From a virus: a stretch of DNA of 64,000 nucleotides. The stretch spans positions 17,590 to 81,589 of the IMG/VR virus record IMGVR_UViG_3300032289_001838. One strand, written 5' to 3'. Below are positions 3,082-61,187 of this stretch, in pieces. The notes under the pieces are model-generated. The model was not told where the DNA came from and made no database searches. It worked only from the letters and a program-made list of their open reading frames with translations. A program made the translations under genes and the position numbers. Position 1 is the stretch's first letter; every line of letters begins with the position of its first letter.

Positions 3082-4275
3082 TTACAACAACCAAGTTAAA
3101 CTTTCTTTTTTATCGTTTACCGTAAAATCCATCGTCTTGTGATGGTCAGCAACACGACTCACATCCTTTTGAACGGTAACAGGACTTGTTACTTTAGATA
3201 TTTTAGAAATCATTGCTTTGTTATAAGCTATTTGATCATTTCTAAGTCTCAATGCGGTTTCACGAACCCACAAACCAATACCCATAGACATTACCAAGTC
3301 ATCGTTATAACCTCTCATCGCTTCTGCTTTAGGTCCGTTCCATATAAATACATTTAATTCCTCAAACAATCTTTTAGACTTCATAATCACTTGTTTTTGT
3401 CTAAAAAATAACTCTAAATTACTTACTATTAACGGTCTATTTTTACTGGTTGTAGTAAATCCAGCTACTAATTTTTTATCTTGTGTATTTAACTTATTAC
3501 TATACGACTTCTCCACATCTACAATGGTAAGATCTGTTGCACTATAAAATGTATTTTGATAATCTCTATCTATTATCTGTTGAAGTGTTCCCCAACCTAC
3601 GTTATTATTTTCTACAACCAATAAAGCATTGTTATATTCGGTTGCAACAGTCACCAATAAATTACCATAATCTTTGGTTGTTAGTTGACCTCTATATTCA
3701 GCAACTTGTTCCATCGTCTCAATATCGATAACATGAAATGCACTAAAATCTCCACCATCTCCTCTTGCACAGTCTGCTGTTAATAGATAATTTTTACTAT
3801 AATTAGGATAATCCCATATCCATAAATCTTGATTATTACCACGCTTTTCTACGGGATCTTTTATATAGGTCTGTTTATAAAACTCAAGAACATCTACACT
3901 CACAACTTGATTACCTGATGTACTAAAATCACAATTATGTGAAACAATTCCGTCTACATTAAAAACATTACCGCCGGAGACGTTTACTATATCATATAAA
4001 TCAATGGGATTTTCGAATTTTTCTATCGTTATGACAACTACATCTACACCATTTGCTCCCGATATTTTTGATCCGATTTTGATATCGTGAGATCGCAGTA
4101 CTGAATTTTTATATATAAAAGGATGATTGTCCGAACATTTTATTATTTTGCCATTACTCAATAATATTTTATAGTAACAATCCTTTTTTATTTTTCTGAT
4201 TCCAAAAAAATCTTGGTAACCTGTTGGAGTCAAAATTTGAAACTTAGTATTTAGTTTAACATTTGAATCGATCAT
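3082..4275 (-). CDS. 17: Large terminase C-terminal half, preceded by the C-part of a split intein
   Basis: Residues 1-114 are the C-terminal part of an intein and residues 115-397 are the nuclease half of the T4 gp17-type terminase. The intein part shows a block B with the catalytic His (CSDNHPFIY, 47-55), a block F (IDLYDIVNV) and a block G ending in NVDGIVSHN, followed by Cys115 as the +1 nucleophile. The extein begins CDFSTSGNQ and contains the RNase H-like nuclease acidic motifs LTADCARGDGGDFSAF, VVENNNVGW and GYNDDLVMS. The start codon overlaps the stop of the endonuclease gene (ATGA). Protein trans-splicing to the N-half at 5046-5879 would give a terminase of about 529 residues. Confidence 0.93.
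   Translation of the reverse strand: MIDSNVKLNTKFQILTPTGYQDFFGIRKIKKDCYYKILLSNGKIIKCSDNHPFIYKNSVLRSHDIKIGSKISGANGVDVVVITIEKFENPIDLYDIVNVSGGNVFNVDGIVSHNCDFSTSGNQVVSVDVLEFYKQTYIKDPVEKRGNNQDLWIWDYPNYSKNYLLTADCARGDGGDFSAFHVIDIETMEQVAEYRGQLTTKDYGNLLVTVATEYNNALLVVENNNVGWGTLQQIIDRDYQNTFYSATDLTIVDVEKSYSNKLNTQDKKLVAGFTTTSKNRPLIVSNLELFFRQKQVIMKSKRLFEELNVFIWNGPKAEAMRGYNDDLVMSMGIGLWVRETALRLRNDQIAYNKAMISKISKVTSPVTVQKDVSRVADHHKTMDFTVNDKKESLTWLL
3934..4275 (-). other. Split intein, C-part (114 residues, AceL-TerL type)
   Basis: The segment contains blocks B, F and G but lacks block A, which is on the other polypeptide. The sequence FQILTPTGYQDFFGI and the NHPF motif resemble the C-part of the described AceL-TerL intein. 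The terminal Asn114 followed by Cys115 provides the residues for Asn cyclisation and transesterification. Confidence 0.92.
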
Positions 4276-5024
4276 ATGTCTATTGTAAATAGTTTACACC
4301 CTAACAAATTTTTAATTTCAGTTTCTCTTTGGAAATCTCTTTGTTTCAATTTACCATTTTTATAGTGTCGTTTTTCGTATATTTCTAACACAACATTATT
4401 TTTCTCATCATATGCATCTAGAAAATAACCAAGTTCTTTAAGAAAAACTTCGCCACCATTTTCAGCGTGTCTAAATGTATATCCGTGTGTATTACCAAAT
4501 TCCTCAATTAGTTGTATTGATTTTTTGTTATAACGAGGTATAATTTGACCTTTTATTTCCGATAAATACTTTAATGTGGATACTCTCATTTTTTGTTTTG
4601 TTTCTGGAGTATGTAGTTTACCAATTTGAGTTTTATGATATTCCGGACATCTACGACAATATTTTGTCCATGTTATTTTTTTCCCACATTGACATTTTAA
4701 TTTTGTCAAATCATAATTATGTTCAACAATAAAACGAATCCGATAAGAAAAATTATACCGTCCCTTGTAACTTTGTTGTTGTTTAAATGCATTTTCTAGA
4801 ATACTCGTATGAAAAAGAATTGATTTATATAGTTTTGGGTTTTGTTTTATCAGAGTTCTATTCTTAGCACGACCAAATAAAAATTTATAATAATTTTCAT
4901 TTAACAATTCGGATTTGGTTTCTTCACGTGAATATAAATCAGTTTCACAACTTAATTGTTTCTTGATTTTATCCCAACCGACCGTTACATAATTTTTAGG
5001 TACACACATATGGGTTGCAATCAC
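4272..5024 (-). CDS. Free-standing homing endonuclease in the terminase gene break
   Basis: A 250-residue protein between the two terminase halves. Residues about 110-135 hold a Cys-rich, probably zinc-binding segment (CQCGKK...CRRCPEYH). A NUMOD3-like DNA-binding motif follows (GKLHTPETKQKMRVSTLKY). The C-terminal 80 residues look like the Vsr-like EDxHD nuclease family: LGYFLDAYDEKNNVVLEIYE, then KRHY, RDFQRE and LGCKLFTID. Such endonucleases are known to lie in fractured genes beside split inteins. The stop overlaps the ATG of the terminase C-half, which suggests translational coupling. The protein probably cuts intein-free terL alleles to spread the cassette; that role is inferred. Confidence 0.85.
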   Translation of the reverse strand: MIATHMCVPKNYVTVGWDKIKKQLSCETDLYSREETKSELLNENYYKFLFGRAKNRTLIKQNPKLYKSILFHTSILENAFKQQQSYKGRYNFSYRIRFIVEHNYDLTKLKCQCGKKITWTKYCRRCPEYHKTQIGKLHTPETKQKMRVSTLKYLSEIKGQIIPRYNKKSIQLIEEFGNTHGYTFRHAENGGEVFLKELGYFLDAYDEKNNVVLEIYEKRHYKNGKLKQRDFQRETEIKNLLGCKLFTIDI

Positions 5025-5045
5025 ATTCTTGTATAATACATATGA

Positions 5046-5879
5046 TTACAATTCTCCGGAATACAATTTTTCTAAAGAAATGTCAAATTCTTTTCCTGAT
5101 GTTTTATCTCTGACTCTAATCGTAGACTCTCCCCATAGACAATCACATTCTTGGGCTGCGCCTTTTACACCAGATAATTCTGTTTGTTTATCTCTCCAAG
5201 CTTGATCTCTTTCTGGATGCAGATGCCATGGTAACCTTATAGTTTTAAAATTGTTCTTACCTTCTTCAGCTTCTACCCACGTTTTATGGAAGAAATTGCC
5301 AACGCCATTTGGAGTACTTAATATAATAGCTCTACCACCAGTGGACAATGTATATTGAGCAGACAGCCAAATTTCTTCAATGCCATCGATAAACGCAGCT
5401 TCGTCAATGATTAGTAATGATAGTGCGGAAGAACGACCAGCTGTACCAGCAGAAGAGACTGCTTTGATTTGAGAACCATTCTTTAAACGCAATGATAATC
5501 TATTATCTTCTACGCATGGTACTTTTAACCAAGATGGCAAGTTATCATTAGCAAATCTAACTTTGGTAACGATTTCTTTTGCGGTTTCTTGTGTAATACT
5601 AATACAAAGAATGTTCTTGTCGTTGTGGAATGTCATTAACCACAAACTATAAGCCGCAGTAAGAGTACTAATACCCATCTGACGACTTTTGAGAACAACG
5701 TTTAACTGATTATCAACAAAGTCTTGTAAAGCGTCTTCTTGGAATGGATATAGTTCAAATCCAACAGTACCACGTATAGGATGTTGAATTTTGACATACT
5801 TCTTCATGAAGTATATAGGATCCTCAATACACTTCTTATACTCTTGTTTTATTATTTCTCTTAGATTTGGCTGACTCAT
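5046..5879 (-). CDS. 17: Large terminase N-terminal (ATPase) half, followed by the N-part of a split intein
   Basis: Residues 1-246 are the packaging ATPase of gp17 type: Walker A SRQMGIST at 65-72, Walker B LLIIDEAAF at 155-163 and the coupling motif STPNG at 188-192. The extein ends in AAQECD. Residue Cys247 starts a short intein N-part of 31 residues (CLWGESTIRVRD...), after which the gene stops. The nuclease domain is missing here and is encoded at 3082-4275. The start overlaps the previous gene by 44 nt. Active terminase therefore needs trans-splicing, or non-covalent assembly of the two halves. Confidence 0.94.
   Translation of the reverse strand: MSQPNLREIIKQEYKKCIEDPIYFMKKYVKIQHPIRGTVGFELYPFQEDALQDFVDNQLNVVLKSRQMGISTLTAAYSLWLMTFHNDKNILCISITQETAKEIVTKVRFANDNLPSWLKVPCVEDNRLSLRLKNGSQIKAVSSAGTAGRSSALSLLIIDEAAFIDGIEEIWLSAQYTLSTGGRAIILSTPNGVGNFFHKTWVEAEEGKNNFKTIRLPWHLHPERDQAWRDKQTELSGVKGAAQECDCLWGESTIRVRDKTSGKEFDISLEKLYSGEL
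5049..5141 (-). other. Split intein, N-part (31 residues)
   Basis: The segment CLWGESTIRVRD matches intein block A with Cys1 as the first nucleophile, and it ends at the gene's stop codon. Only block A is present. Classical natural split inteins carry about 100 residues on the N side; a split this close to the N-terminus is the atypical architecture known from AceL-TerL (about 25 + 104 residues as I recall). Confidence 0.9.
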
Positions 5880-15575: not shown

Positions 15576-17691
15576 TTTTAAGATCTGATATGCATTTATC
15601 AATTTTTTCTTTAATCATTTCAAATGTTATCATTGATGTACATTCAAAATCTTTATTTCTTGGACACCAATCCCATTTTTTAGCATCAAATTTAAAATTA
15701 ATATCATTCCAGCAACTATTACACACGGATTTATTGTGTACTCTATAAGGTGTGTAAAATTCAGACTTTGGATCTGAAAATCCAGAAATTAAAACTACTG
15801 GTTTCTCAACCATCCAGGCTAACCAAGATAAGCCAGACCCTAATCCAATAAAGAAATCGCAAAAATATAAATCATTTATTCGTTCAGATAGAGGAAAATC
15901 TCCAGTTTTATTTATACTACCAACAGGTATTTCGTTATGATAACCATTGTTTCCTATATTACTAATTTTATCAATTGATACAACGTCGTATCCAATTGAT
16001 TGTAGATATGTCACCACTTTATTCCACCCATCTGGATTGTTCCAAAATTTAGCTTGAGCAGTTGACAGAGATCCAATGCAAACGTATTTTTTATTAAAAT
16101 TGTTTTTTAACTGTGTTGGTTTTAAATATTTGGGTTTTGTTTCGATATAATCAATGCCTAATATTTCTGCGGACATTTGTTGTAAACTTTGAGTTCGCCA
16201 ATCTGTTGGGGCCGAAGATCTGTCATCTACGTCGAAACATCCAATTCTATAAGAAGCAAAGTATTCATCATTTGAAATATGATTGTAATTAAAAAAGTTT
16301 ATATTTGGATATTCTGTACAAAACAATTCTTTTAATGGTGAGTAGAAGTCTACGATACATTTATGTTTCTTCTGAAATAGATCAACATATGGAAGCCAAG
16401 CGATGCAATCGCCTAAAGCGCCTGACTCATTTACAATTTTTACTCTTTTTCCTGTTAGATTAAAATTATAAATTGTATAACTATTGGTTTCTAAATCTTC
16501 CACTTCAATTCTCCAATTAATAAAATATTTAATACTTGGCTTAGCCCACATACCACTTGAAAGTGTTGTTTCATAAATCAACGTATTGTTTTTATTATTA
16601 ATAAACTTTACTTTATATTTTTTTGAATCGGATCCAAAAATCTCAACTTTACATCCATCTTTATAATCTATAATTACGTTATTCGTAATTTCTCTGGGAG
16701 ATATGTGTTTAATAGGAGTTTCGTTATAAATTTTTAAAAGTTGATCTTTCATAGTCATTTGAACATTATACGAAGGTAATAAATTTTTTTCAACAATTTT
16801 ATTCCAATCTTTTTCATGTGCAGTTTTCAATGCGTTATTTTTAAATTCAATATAATTATCAATTACGTGGTTAATTCCTTCAACTATAACATTCGCATCA
16901 CGTGTTATTCTGTATAATCCGTTTAATTGATTATTATCTTCAAATGTGCCTACGATTGGTAATCCACATGACAATGATTCTAATAAAGTTAAATTTGGAT
17001 GTCCCGCCTCGGAAATTGAGGGATGAAGAAAAATCGTATGGTTTTTATAAACATCAACCAATTCTGATTCTGTTAGATTATACAATATTGTCAATTTATC
17101 ATAATCCACATGGTATGTTTCAAAAAAGTGTTTATTATTAAATGGACCAGCAATGGTAATAGGTAAATTGAGTTTTTTTGCTGCTTCTATAGCATAAGAA
17201 AATCCTTTTCTATCTTCAGCTTGATTATGAATAAATCCATTGTTAGCTACACAGAGAAGTCGATGTTGTAAAATTTCATTATTAGATGGAGTAAACATTT
17301 GAGTATTAACTCCATGACTTAGATATTCTACGTTAGGCAAGTCAAAATATTCTACCAAATATTTAGCGGGGACAAATGTTTTTATAGAATGTTGTGCGGC
17401 GAATCTGTTATTTTTATATACCTGAGACTCTTTTCCGTATATGTAGGCATGATGATCGTGAAAAGAAAAGTAATACGGGATTTTTTTATTATACAACTCT
17501 AGTGCTAAATTAGCTAAATGAACATGTACAATGTCATATTTTTTGGGATCAATATCATTTAGAAATAAAACATCACATTCGTGTCCCAGTTTTTCTGAAG
17601 AACATTTATATTCCCATATTATTTTCTCAACAGCTCCCCATCCATTTGGTGGAATTGGATGTATACCTGTGTGTACCTGTACGATTTTCAT
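15559..17691 (-). CDS. Fusion of a GT4 glycosyltransferase with a BAHT-type heptosyltransferase
   Basis: Residues 1 to about 330 are a GT-B glycosyltransferase of GT4 type (NGWGAVEKIIWEY, FHDHHAYIYG, DRKGFSYAIEAAKKLNLPIT, SEAGHPNLTLLESLSCGLPI). Residues from about 340 to 440 form the beta-rich N-domain of autotransporter heptosyltransferases (VIIDYKDGCKVEIFG, LSSGMWAKPSIKYFINW). Residues from about 445 on are the GT9-like catalytic domain (VNESGALGDCIAWLPY, GLGSGLSWLAW) with four Cys near the end (CNSC, WCPR, FEC). One chain thus carries two sugar-transfer modules, suggesting a priming and an extension step. It overlaps the paralogous downstream gene by 17 nt. Confidence 0.85.
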   Translation of the reverse strand: MKIVQVHTGIHPIPPNGWGAVEKIIWEYKCSSEKLGHECDVLFLNDIDPKKYDIVHVHLANLALELYNKKIPYYFSFHDHHAYIYGKESQVYKNNRFAAQHSIKTFVPAKYLVEYFDLPNVEYLSHGVNTQMFTPSNNEILQHRLLCVANNGFIHNQAEDRKGFSYAIEAAKKLNLPITIAGPFNNKHFFETYHVDYDKLTILYNLTESELVDVYKNHTIFLHPSISEAGHPNLTLLESLSCGLPIVGTFEDNNQLNGLYRITRDANVIVEGINHVIDNYIEFKNNALKTAHEKDWNKIVEKNLLPSYNVQMTMKDQLLKIYNETPIKHISPREITNNVIIDYKDGCKVEIFGSDSKKYKVKFINNKNNTLIYETTLSSGMWAKPSIKYFINWRIEVEDLETNSYTIYNFNLTGKRVKIVNESGALGDCIAWLPYVDLFQKKHKCIVDFYSPLKELFCTEYPNINFFNYNHISNDEYFASYRIGCFDVDDRSSAPTDWRTQSLQQMSAEILGIDYIETKPKYLKPTQLKNNFNKKYVCIGSLSTAQAKFWNNPDGWNKVVTYLQSIGYDVVSIDKISNIGNNGYHNEIPVGSINKTGDFPLSERINDLYFCDFFIGLGSGLSWLAWMVEKPVVLISGFSDPKSEFYTPYRVHNKSVCNSCWNDINFKFDAKKWDWCPRNKDFECTSMITFEMIKEKIDKCISDLKNDHSN

Positions 17692-58420: not shown

Positions 58421-58496
58421 TGGAGCACTAGGTCGGGTACGATCCGACAACCTTATCGTTGGCAACGATACGCTCTACCAATTGAGCTACTAGTGC
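58421..58496 (-). tRNA. tRNA-Gly(GCC)
   Basis: Acceptor GCACTAG/CTAGTGC, U73 and encoded CCA. The anticodon stem TATCG/CGATA closes the loop TTGCCAA with anticodon GCC. The T-loop is ATCGTAC instead of the usual TTCRANY. Confidence 0.9.
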
Positions 58497-58604
58497 GTTA
58501 AAATTAATCAACATAGAACCTACATTTTATATCACTTTTTGCATGAAATTATAAAATTTCATCCCATTGACAACCATCGTGGAGGTTGTGATATTTCTGT
58601 CAAC

Positions 58605-58677
58605 TGGAGCAGATGGGAGTTGAACCCACAATCTTCACTTTGCAAAAGTGGTGCATTGCCAATTATGCTACTGCCCC
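58605..58677 (-). tRNA. tRNA-Ala(UGC), first copy
   Basis: Acceptor GGGGCAG/CTGCTCC with the Ala identity pair G3:U70, A73, no encoded CCA. The anticodon loop TTTGCAA gives UGC. One C-A mismatch is seen at the top of the anticodon stem. Confidence 0.82.
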
Positions 58678-58734
58678 ATTTAAAAATCTTACACCAATAT
58701 ATAATATAAGTCAAATCAAAAAATAAAAAATTGG

Positions 58735-59035
58735 ATGACCGTGACTTGCGAATATACGAGGATTTCACTAAGCGTTCCATATTTCAATCAAGTCCAACGG
58801 CACTGTGCGCACAGAAACCATAAACTTAAATCGAATGTCTATCTCGTCAACTTCAGTCTCATCTACCTCCTAATGGCAGAGTGCTATAATTCTATACACC
58901 AACGATCAAATCTAAAACTTATCCCAGACACCTTGGCGGTTTTATGGGCATATTTAACCCACAGATTATTAGCCGAACACAGCCGTTGGTTATTGTTTCG
59001 GACCTAGCCAAGTTCAAACCTCTACCAATGTCTGA
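58735..59035 (-). ncRNA. Unassigned ~300-nt structured RNA candidate inside the tRNA array
   Basis: The 367-nt gap between tRNA-Ala and tRNA-Pro has no convincing gene. It contains a perfect palindromic hairpin (CTGTGCGCACAG, about 58803-58814), a long-range 8-bp complement (ccaacggc near 58794-58801 with gccgttgg near 58982-58989), a 7-bp one (ccataaa near 58818 with tttatgg near 58941) and a stem ccgaaca/tgtttcgg near 58973-59000. These are what I see; a functional RNA is inferred. I do not recognise RNase P, 6S or a group I intron core. Confidence 0.45.
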
Positions 59036-59044
59036 TATATAAAA

Positions 59045-59120
59045 TGGTCGGAATGACAGGACTCGCACCTGCAACCTCCTAGCTCCAAACCAGGCCGTCT
59101 ACTATTGACATTACATTCCG
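59045..59120 (-). tRNA. tRNA-Pro(UGG), first copy
   Basis: Acceptor CGGAATG/CATTCCG, A73 and CCA. The anticodon stem CCTGG/CTAGG closes the loop TTTGGAG with anticodon UGG. The C1-G72 pair is typical for Pro. The T-loop begins TGC rather than TTC. Confidence 0.88.
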
Positions 59121-59131
59121 AATAAATTGTT

Positions 59132-59229
59132 GTCGGTGTTTGATGAATGGATCTTTCGATCACTAGTTCTTACTCTTGTAACTGATGATCACTCATTACA
59201 ATTTCTCTAAAATTACACCCTTAACCGAC
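59132..59229 (-). ncRNA. tRNA-like multi-hairpin element
   Basis: A terminal stem GTCGGT/ACCGAC encloses hairpins AATTT/AAATT, TTGTAA/TTACAA and GATC-GAAA-GATC. The outline is cloverleaf-like, but no T-arm or anticodon arm of a normal tRNA is present. It lies between two good tRNA genes. Confidence 0.4.
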
Positions 59230-59239
59230 ATATATAAAA

Positions 59240-59313
59240 TGGTTGGGGATGATGGAATCGAACCACCACAAGCAGATTCAAAGTCTGCCGCACTACCATT
59301 ATGCAAATCCCCA
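59240..59313 (-). tRNA. tRNA-Gln(UUG)
   Basis: Acceptor TGGGGAT/ATCCCCA, A73 and CCA. The stem GCAGA/TCTGC closes the loop CTTTGAA with anticodon UUG. The U1-A72 start is typical for Gln. Confidence 0.93.
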
Positions 59314-59319
59314 GTTAAA

Positions 59320-60162
59320 TTACTTTTCATAAAGATTGATAAAATCTTTTCCGTATTTTGATGTCACATAATCAATGTACATCTTAATTTTGTGTTTGTC
59401 AATCACATTTAATTTAAATGGAAAAGAATTTATTTTTGCTTTATTTTTATTATCTAAATAACCTTTTATTTCAAAATATTCATTTGTTGATTCAAGAATA
59501 AAGTCTGGATAAAAATTATAGCTCTTGTTGTTATAAACATATGGAAATCCAGCAGTATTTCTTTTAAATTTAATATTATGTTCTAAATTGAATATAACCC
59601 AAGCTAATTCCCAACTACTATTACAATAGTATCCTTTATACCATCCTTGTTTACCTCTTCCACCTTTTTCACGATAACCTCCTCTTTTACCTTTCAAAAG
59701 TCCGTTTACTTTTACATATTCATTTCTACAATTCTGAGAGCAATATATCTGTTTTGATTTTTCTGTTTTTAAAAAATTATTATTACAATACGGACATAAT
59801 ATAGATTTACGTGTTTTTACTCTAATCTGTTTTTTTGCTAATTCAGATAATCTTTTTTTACCTTCTATATCCCATTTTTTGTGACCCCCAAACTTTTGGT
59901 TTTCAATAGCTGCACATTTTGTAGAACAAAATTTATTATTTCTTCTAAAATATTCTAAATTAGTATTACAATATCCACACTTATTTGGATTTAGATTATA
60001 TTTTTCTACTCTATATAGTTTTAATTGTGGTGAAATTGTTTTTCCATTAAACTCTACAGAACATTTATTAGAACAAAAATGATTGTTAGTTCTTTTTATT
60101 TCACTTTTATATTTTAAAAACTTAATATTACATTTTTTACAATTTACTAGTATTTTACTCAT
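59320..60162 (-). CDS. tRNA-associated PD-(D/E)XK endonuclease, copy 2
   Basis: From the ATG at 60162 (MSKILVNCKKCNIKF) the protein has 280 residues. Zinc-finger-like Cys pairs occur as HFCSNKCS, KFCSTKC and YCSQNCRN. The nuclease core is GYYCNSSWELAWVIFNLEHN, NFYPDF and YFEIKGY. It is a close paralogue of the copy at 57506-58363, especially in the first 30 residues and the core. It lies directly downstream of tRNA-Gly(UCC) and 6 nt upstream of tRNA-Gln. The same leader sequence (TTACTATTTATTAGTATG) precedes both copies. Confidence 0.8.
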   Translation of the reverse strand: MSKILVNCKKCNIKFLKYKSEIKRTNNHFCSNKCSVEFNGKTISPQLKLYRVEKYNLNPNKCGYCNTNLEYFRRNNKFCSTKCAAIENQKFGGHKKWDIEGKKRLSELAKKQIRVKTRKSILCPYCNNNFLKTEKSKQIYCSQNCRNEYVKVNGLLKGKRGGYREKGGRGKQGWYKGYYCNSSWELAWVIFNLEHNIKFKRNTAGFPYVYNNKSYNFYPDFILESTNEYFEIKGYLDNKNKAKINSFPFKLNVIDKHKIKMYIDYVTSKYGKDFINLYEK

Positions 60163-60224
60163 ACTAATAAATAGTAATTTTGGAGCGTAAAGTAACTTTT
60201 GAATCAAAATATTTTGTTTGATTC

Positions 60225-60299
60225 TGGTGCAGTAGGAGAGAATTGAACTCTCATTTCAAGTTTGGAAGACTCACGTAATAGCCATTATACCACTACTGC
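60225..60299 (-). tRNA. tRNA-Gly(UCC)
   Basis: Acceptor GCAGTAG/CTACTGC, A73 and CCA. The loop CTTCCAA gives anticodon UCC on a stem TGAGT/ACTTG with two wobble pairs. The T-arm is GAGAG-TTCAATT-CTCTC. Confidence 0.88.
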
Positions 60300-60384
60300 A
60301 TTTTAATAAATTATTAGATGTTCAGTCATCAAATATTTGATGTGTACTATGAACCACGGACAGGTAATCTAATTTCTCATAGCG

Positions 60385-60474
60385 CGGAGGCGAAGGGTGC
60401 TGCCCCCTCAGTGGCTTTTAGACCACGGCAGTTTAGCAAACTGCTGTAGAAACCTGACTATCTACGTCACCTCC
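60385..60474 (-). tRNA. tRNA-Ser(GCU), unusual T-loop
   Basis: Acceptor GGAGGTG/CGCCTCC, G73 as expected for Ser, no encoded CCA. The stem GCAGT/ACTGC closes the loop TTGCTAA with anticodon GCU; a long variable arm is present. The T-loop reads GGCAGCA, without the usual TTC. Confidence 0.82.
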
Positions 60475-60518
60475 ATAAAATCTTTTGACAAACTCCGATT
60501 TCTTCAAGGAACAATATC

Positions 60519-60547
60519 AATATATCAGTTCTCGGTTCCAATGTCAA
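60519..60547 (-). promoter_or_regulatory. Internal sigma70-type promoter in the tRNA array
   Basis: On the minus strand TTGACA (60542-60547), a 17-nt spacer and TATATT (60519-60524), just upstream of tRNA-Ser(GCU). Confidence 0.8.
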
Positions 60548-60567
60548 GTGGAGTTGTATTTAAAGAG

Positions 60568-60651
60568 CGGAAGCAACAGGAATCGAACCTGTGAGGGTTT
60601 ATGGCCCCAGCTGTTTTCAAGACAGTTTCCTCGACCTGCCGGACTACTTCC
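60568..60651 (-). tRNA. tRNA-Ser(UGA)
   Basis: Acceptor GGAAGTA/TGCTTCC with G73. The stem ACTGT/ACAGC closes the loop CTTGAAA with anticodon UGA. A long variable arm and a normal T-arm ACAGG-TTCGATT-CCTGT are present. CCA is not encoded. Confidence 0.92.
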
Positions 60652-60662
60652 ATAAAATAAAT

Positions 60663-60740
60663 TGGTGGACCAGGTGAGAATCGAACTCACATCAGACTGA
60701 TTGCAAACCAGTCTCGCTTAGCCTTAGAACATGCCAGCCC
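60663..60740 (-). tRNA. tRNA-Ala(UGC), second copy
   Basis: Acceptor GGGCTGG/CTGGTCC with G3:U70, A73 and CCA. The stem ACTGG/TCAGT closes the loop TTTGCAA with anticodon UGC. A73 and G3:U70 argue for Ala against Cys. One extra base seems present between the D-arm and anticodon arm. Confidence 0.78.
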
Positions 60741-60747
60741 ATAAATT

Positions 60748-60832
60748 TGGTAGGTGTGGTAGGATTCGAACCTACATAGGATACAATATTTTAAGTATTG
60801 CGGTTGTTCCAGTTTCCCTTATCCACACACCC
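60748..60832 (-). tRNA. tRNA-Leu(UAA)
   Basis: Acceptor GGGTGTG/CACACCT, A73 and CCA. The stem CAATA/TATTG closes the loop CTTAAAA with anticodon UAA. The variable arm is about 8 nt, short for Leu. Confidence 0.88.
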
Positions 60833-60839
60833 GTTAAAT

Positions 60840-60917
60840 TGGTAGTTACGACTGGATTCGAACCAGCACTATTCTATTTTTGAGATAGACGACTCCTTCC
60901 AGTTGGTCTACGTAACC
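60840..60917 (-). tRNA. tRNA with anticodon CAA (Leu) but class I variable loop
   Basis: Acceptor GGTTACG/CGTAACT, A73 and CCA. The stem TCTAT/ATAGA closes the loop CTCAAAA with anticodon CAA. The variable loop is only about 5 nt, unlike normal Leu tRNAs, so charging is uncertain. Confidence 0.75.
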
Positions 60918-60925
60918 ATTGAAAT

Positions 60926-61009
60926 TGGTGGGCATAGAGGGACTTGAACCCCCACGGATTTCTCCACGAGCTTCTAAAACTCGCATGGCTGCGATTACAT
61001 CATATGCCC
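60926..61009 (-). tRNA. tRNA-Leu(UAG)
   Basis: Acceptor GGGCATA/TATGCCC, A73 and CCA. The stem CGAGT/GCTCG closes the loop TTTAGAA with anticodon UAG. A class II variable arm of 13 nt is present. Confidence 0.9.
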
Positions 61010-61019
61010 AATTAAAAGA

Positions 61020-61104
61020 TGGTCGGAGTGATAGGACTTGCACCTACAGGTCTTTCGATCCAGTTCCCAAAACTGGCCCGCCCCTATTTACGGACTACAC
61101 TCCG
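61020..61104 (-). tRNA. tRNA-Pro(UGG)-like, second copy, with long variable region
   Basis: Acceptor CGGAGTG/CACTCCG, A73 and CCA. The stem CCAGT/ACTGG closes the loop TTTGGGA with anticodon UGG. The variable region is about 12 nt, unusual for Pro, and the T-loop begins TGC as in the first Pro copy. Confidence 0.78.
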
Positions 61105-61111
61105 ATTAAAA

Positions 61112-61187
61112 TGGTAGGTGGTATAGGATTTAAACCTATGACATTTTGCGTGTAAAGCAAATGCTCTATCAACTGAGCTAACCACCC
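61112..61187 (-). tRNA. tRNA-Val(UAC)
   Basis: Acceptor GGGTGGT/ACCACCT, A73 and CCA. The stem TTTGC/GCAAA closes the loop TTTACAC with anticodon UAC. It is the first tRNA after the array promoter. Confidence 0.93.

Follow-up and report, generated by a model that had tools for sequence, protein, structure and literature searches.

In a 64,000-nucleotide stretch of viral DNA (IMG/VR record IMGVR_UViG_3300032289_001838, positions 17,590 to 81,589; hereafter the window), the terminase gene terL is a fractured gene. It carries a mobile, atypically split intein of the AceL/Cat type, and a free-standing homing endonuclease gene (HEG) and a control region lie between its two halves. The element itself is of a known kind. 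The new and unexpected part is a conserved copy of the insertion-site DNA that adjoins the HEG. Coordinates refer to the window unless they follow an L-number (such as L005 or L053), which denotes a locus of an IMG/VR relative. The features of the locus are as follows.

5142..5879, minus strand: N-terminal extein (terL-N), 246 amino acids, the TerL ATPase half, with a Walker A-like SRQMGIST and Walker B LLIIDEAAF
5142..5153, minus strand: left part of the homing/insertion site, the QECD codons CAAGAATGTGAT, which are repeated by the copy
5049..5141, minus strand: intein N-part (IntN), 31 amino acids, starting at Cys1 (CLWGES...YSGEL); stop codon at 5046-5048
5032..5042, minus strand: promoter-like sequence TATGTATTATA, directly 5' of the site copy
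5017..5031, minus strand: copy of the insertion-site DNA, CAAGAATGTGATTGC, the proposed HEG operator; 14 of 15 positions agree with the consensus site CAAGAATGTGATTGT
4272..5024, minus strand: open reading frame (ORF) of the predicted EDxHD/Vsr-like homing endonuclease, 250 amino acids from a GTG; alternative ATG at 5009
3934..4275, minus strand: intein C-part (IntC), 114 amino acids, with blocks B, F and G, ending in VSHN
3085..3933, minus strand: C-terminal extein (terL-C), 283 amino acids, the nuclease half, from Cys+1 (CDFSTSGNQ); stop codon at 3082-3084

The split terminase gene and its intein

The ORF at 5046..5879 (minus strand) reads ...AAQECD followed by the 31 residues of IntN (CLWGESTIRVRDKTSGKEFDISLEKLYSGEL and the stop codon), and the ORF at 3082..4275 (minus strand) encodes 114 amino acids to VDGIVSHN before continuing with CDFSTSGNQ. 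The joined exteins amount to 246 + 283 = 529 amino acids. A first-pass annotation of the window had described terL as two genes, the first ending in a 31-residue N-part with Cys1 and the second opening with a 114-residue C-part that contains blocks B, F and G, the terminal Asn and then Cys+1, with exteins joined at AAQECD-CDFSTSGNQ to give about 529 residues. Both halves and all of these counts are correct, but the free-standing 250-codon HEG ORF and the control region were overlooked. This ORF sits between terL-N and terL-C, and its stop codon overlaps the terL-C start by 4 bp (ATGA), as is the case in nearly all relatives.

Family matches for terL-N include PF03237 (4e-13) and phrog_5989 (5.5e-42), and terL-C matches terminase PHROGs. 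The same annotation had named an uninterrupted terL elsewhere in the genome as evidence that would speak against a split gene. None is present in the 81.6-kb record, which is possibly a fragment, and each half occurs there as a single copy.

Judged by its sequence, the intein is a new member of the AceL-TerL/Cat/VidaL class, in keeping with the kinship to AceL-TerL proposed earlier. The IntC matches the engineered consensus CatC (PDB 6dsl) with E=1.6e-17 over residues 3-113. The Hint/intein fold was tested on the contiguous relative L201, whose model (pLDDT 94.6) has VidaL (6vgv; TM 0.73/0.72) and Cat (6dsl; TM 0.65/0.78) among its best fold matches. Members of this class have an IntN of about 25-37 amino acids before block B and an IntC of about 100-115 amino acids with blocks B, F and G, and the window intein has 31 and 114. 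An AceL-like group in IMG/VR has its intein at the homologous point (EFE|CEFLGS versus ECD|CDFSTS). Published IntN lengths are 25 amino acids for AceL and 37 for GOS, and Cat has 30 + 104 (PMC11766414). Because the N-parts of related split loci run from 30 to 38 amino acids, an N-part of 31 is ordinary for the class rather than unusually short, and the earlier remark to that effect has to be withdrawn. The atypical split site, with its short IntN and long IntC, is as described.

The catalytic residues had also been reported as intact, and Cys1, the block B Cys-Ser-x-x-His, the penultimate His, the terminal Asn and Cys+1 are indeed all present. Both intein parts are open frames that keep these residues across relatives at 46-94% identity. 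Such conservation suggests that the two proteins would be trans-spliced into a 529-amino-acid terminase. These loci offer further naturally split inteins with N-parts of 30-38 residues that could be of use for protein labelling.

The middle ORF is predicted to encode an EDxHD/Vsr-like homing endonuclease, an assignment made from fold and residues. Its model (pLDDT 85) resembles the catalytic domain of I-Bth0305I (3r3p; probability 0.97, TM by target 0.51, rmsd 4.0) and, to a lesser degree, Vsr (1vsr; probability 0.57). There are 24 aligned homologues, most of them in the same position between intein halves, and E192, D203, D206, E214, E217, H220 and D230 are invariant among them, as are four cysteines (C111/C113/C123/C126). 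A related HEG is also found free-standing between the end of terL and the portal gene in L139-L141 (~3165-3851), where it adjoins an empty QECDC site. Members of the same HEG family reside in a TerL intein located two codons upstream (SQE|CDADF) in L125-L128, and no site copy is found in this QE|CDADF variant.

The copy of the insertion site

The HEG is directly preceded by 15 bp that repeat the insertion site (CARGARTGYGAYTG) and correspond to the QECDC codons. When 287 offsets of the flanking extein were compared with the IntN/HEG boundary and averaged over 25 clusters, the site itself (offset -12) scored best of all 287, with a z of 5.8. The same scan of HEG-less alleles gave no copy signal (z -0.1).

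Among 18 non-redundant elements, the columns of the copy have a mean pairwise identity of 0.80, which divides into 0.91 at non-wobble and 0.58 at wobble-equivalent positions, and the flanks on either side have 0.33-0.44, the level given by composition. Most minority changes (34 of 49) fall at the five wobble-equivalent positions, which is the most extreme of 3003 position sets. Other homing endonucleases tolerate changes at wobble positions of their targets (PMC3943268), and a protein with such tolerance would leave a pattern of this type.

Relative to the HEG, copies are found in each of the three reading frames, and most of them lie 5' of the HEG start; their conservation therefore cannot reflect a coding constraint. 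We considered whether the HEG protein begins with a conserved QECDC, which is ruled out by the three frames and by the fact that the copy is often upstream of any start codon. Repeated conversion from the host site was likewise considered and is unlikely, because copies carry bases (A at 12, T at 3) that are never seen in 75 empty sites. Thus, simple renewal from the gene does not account for the copy. L164, with a recently deleted HEG, and L200, with a HEG remnant, both retain it.

The copy is also found next to a possible promoter. TATTTAT precedes 13 of the 51 genes in the window at a distance of up to 60 nt, compared with 2.6% in the background, and this enrichment makes it a candidate promoter element of the phage. 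Of the 18 non-redundant elements, 11 have TATNTAT on the 5' side of the copy, no more than 20 nt away, compared with 2.9% in the background. In the clade of L108, L112 and L113, TATTTAT is instead located 3' of the copy and overlaps it.

A similar arrangement exists with an unrelated nuclease. The HEG of the AceL-like group belongs to the GIY-YIG family (PF01541 above cut-off), and HEG-bearing members have a copy of site bases -3..+15 at the IntN stop codon, with TATAAATA directly after it. This sequence is the T4 late-promoter octamer. The best offsets for this group are 0 and -3 (z 4.5 and 4.3).

Fractured gp41 loci of the gp41-1 type (L240-L288) contain a GIY-YIG-like ORF and TATAAATA 22 nt after the IntN stop. 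Here a 12/14 match to site +12..+26 is the top offset (z 3.6), a result that is only suggestive because these loci represent essentially one HEG lineage. In addition, a fractured PhoH-like gene (GSGK|T; L131:380-2116) with a split intein and a related HEG has a 13/16 copy of its own site upstream of the HEG. No site copy was found in its relative L319, which has lost a HEG-sized insert.

Alleles at the insertion codon

There are 75 fetched terL genes that represent empty alleles and read uninterrupted through AAQECD|CDF. The closest is L005, with 97.1% identity over 240 bp of joined flank, and thus the insertion point is exact. The QECD site also has 38 distinct occupied alleles. Those with a HEG are about 1140-1220 bp long, and HEG remnants are found in L130, in L200 and in L164, which is nearly identical to the window with most of the HEG gone. 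HEG-less split alleles of 421-455 bp are found in L053, L190, L191, L194 and L196. L201 carries a fused, contiguous intein at this site, and L202 reads alike. In the AceL-like group, L237 is contiguous, and L218 has nearly the same sequence and is split by 24 extra bp.

A maximum-likelihood tree, in which several inner branches are weak, requires at least seven changes for the HEG-less split label. HEG presence was rejected as a clade marker. Its scatter is close to the shuffled expectation, so the tree shows repeated HEG loss rather than clades. Thus, the HEG has been lost often and the split intein outlasts it. The two fused forms are located in separate lineages among split ones on this tree, which suggests that fusion of a split intein happened about twice, the direction being read from their nesting.

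The IntC start codon of the HEG-less split alleles L190 and L194 lies out of frame within the IntN coding sequence, and the split is therefore kept by overlapping genes. The next gene, which encodes the portal protein, contains a contiguous intein (LFRDYD|CVGPDTIIPLPDG...) in L002:7816-8523 and L053:7073-8521; the portal gene of the window lacks this intein. Elsewhere in the window, ten tRNA genes form an array at 58421-61187 (minus strand). A tmRNA call made by ARAGORN overlaps three of these genes and is probably false.

Proposed function and comparison with known systems

The account that we consider probable as a whole is that this fractured terL is restored by trans-splicing, spreads by means of its HEG and carries an operator through which the HEG would repress itself. 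The terL-N-IntN and IntC-terL-C proteins would be made separately and spliced at AAQECD|CDF. The EDxHD-type HEG would cut AAQECDCDF where it is intact, in phages without the intein, and the element would be copied into that site when the cut is repaired; both cleavage and homing are proposed from sequence. The HEG would also bind the 15-bp copy at its own promoter-like sequence without cleaving it, and would thereby limit its own expression. This last role is suggested by the conservation and placement of the copy, by its recurrence with two unrelated HEGs and by the precedent of I-TevI. Such elements repeatedly lose the HEG but keep the split intein, which can fuse again.

Several observations weigh against parts of this account. 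The Foldseek E value for 3r3p is just 0.13, and the HEG has no significant match in Pfam, PHROGs, NCBIfam or PDB by phmmer or hmmsearch, with weak hints of NUMOD3. Since a family match at the sequence level is lacking, we call the HEG EDxHD-like for its fold and residues. In the window lineage, the EIDE.RH stretch reads EIYEKRH, so that Tyr replaces an acidic residue. The nuclease is possibly weakened, and its activity is uncertain for this reason. The copy is not universal, because it is weak or lacking in six HEG-bearing relatives (L106, L109, L110, L111, L193 and L195). Furthermore, the elements are related by descent and the counts are not fully independent, and the promoter motif comes from enrichment alone in an AT-rich genome.

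The copy might instead be a mere footprint of the first entry of the HEG into the intein, for example by end-joining or recombination at its own target, and have no present function. Its location exactly at the fracture point would be explained in this way, as would similar copies in fractured loci with other HEGs if the insertion mechanism were common to them. However, a neutral copy should decay to the identity of its flanks, which its non-wobble positions have not done, and it is the DNA sequence of the copy that is conserved, whichever reading frame it is in. We regard a footprint as unlikely. We give a similarly low probability to some other DNA role, such as a decoy, an aid to homing recombination or a site for HEG re-entry into HEG-less split inteins. 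The copies still held by L164 and L200 would suit re-entry, but older HEG-less forms have no copy, the element would put itself at risk with a copy that can be cleaved, and an operator better explains why the copy lies next to a promoter-like motif in two HEG families.

It is quite improbable that the element is decaying, with an inactive intein or HEG and a phage that makes its terminase from another terL or from halves that assemble non-covalently. The altered EIYEKRH stretch and the frequency of HEG loss point in that direction, but the frames and catalytic residues of both intein parts are maintained among divergent relatives, the record yields no second terL, and several independent contigs still contain a HEG that is almost identical. 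That the locus is an assembly artefact or chimaera, as might be suspected of a single metagenomic record, has a negligible probability, given that many independent contigs have the same arrangement, five of them with a HEG at 96-99% identity.

The operator reading can be extended to fractured split-intein genes as a class. We lean, by a narrow degree, towards the view that these genes carry, at the fracture point, a mimic of their own homing site that acts as an autorepressor operator, and that this arrangement has evolved with two or more nuclease families that are unrelated to each other (EDxHD and GIY-YIG). The DNA between the halves would then be a regulated switch that reveals the recognition sequence. 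For the present family of uncharacterised endonucleases, the conserved copy predicts this sequence and also a means by which the enzyme is restrained within an essential gene. Because empty, invaded, HEG-deleted and re-fused states exist at one codon, ideas on where split inteins come from and what becomes of them can be tested directly.

The nearest precedent for the proposed control is I-TevI of phage T4, which binds, but does not cleave, an operator and so represses its late promoter (PMC2988022). This operator is identical to the homing site at 15 of 20 positions and overlaps the promoter, and similar but unproven sites exist for I-TevII and I-TevIII (PMC2988022). Both I-TevI and the window element have a sequence resembling the homing site immediately upstream of the HEG. 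The I-TevI site overlaps its promoter, and the window copy abuts a motif that is promoter-like in sequence. Autorepression was shown by experiment for I-TevI, a GIY-YIG enzyme of a group I intron, whereas we infer it for an EDxHD-like enzyme associated with a split intein.

AceL-TerL, GOS-TerL, VidaL and Cat share with the window intein a homologous terL insertion point (E-x-[ED]|C-x-F) and the combination of a short IntN with a long IntC, and Cys1 and Cys+1 are common to AceL as well. The window intein differs in its lengths (31 + 114 residues versus 25 + 104 for AceL-TerL), and its IntC is about 37% identical to those of the AceL-like group. It is found in a different host clade, that of T4-like phages near Flavobacterium phage immuto and Microcystis phage Mel-JY01, and its HEG is EDxHD-like rather than GIY-YIG.

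I-Bth0305I, an EDxHD enzyme (PDB 3r3p), is encoded in an intron and targets recA. The window HEG has the predicted catalytic fold and the E/D/H/D set in common with it, but sequence similarity between the two is undetectable.

The closest parallel to the whole locus is the fractured gene of Dassa et al. 2009, in which a split intein reportedly interrupts an essential phage gene and a free-standing Vsr-like HEG separates the two parts; the abstract of that work is said to mention control elements brought in with the endonuclease gene. Here, too, a conserved phage enzyme is encoded in two pieces with split-intein halves, and a free-standing HEG lies between them. What differs is that a single codon is seen in empty, HEG-less and re-fused states, and that a conserved copy of the insertion site lies at the promoter-like motif of the HEG.
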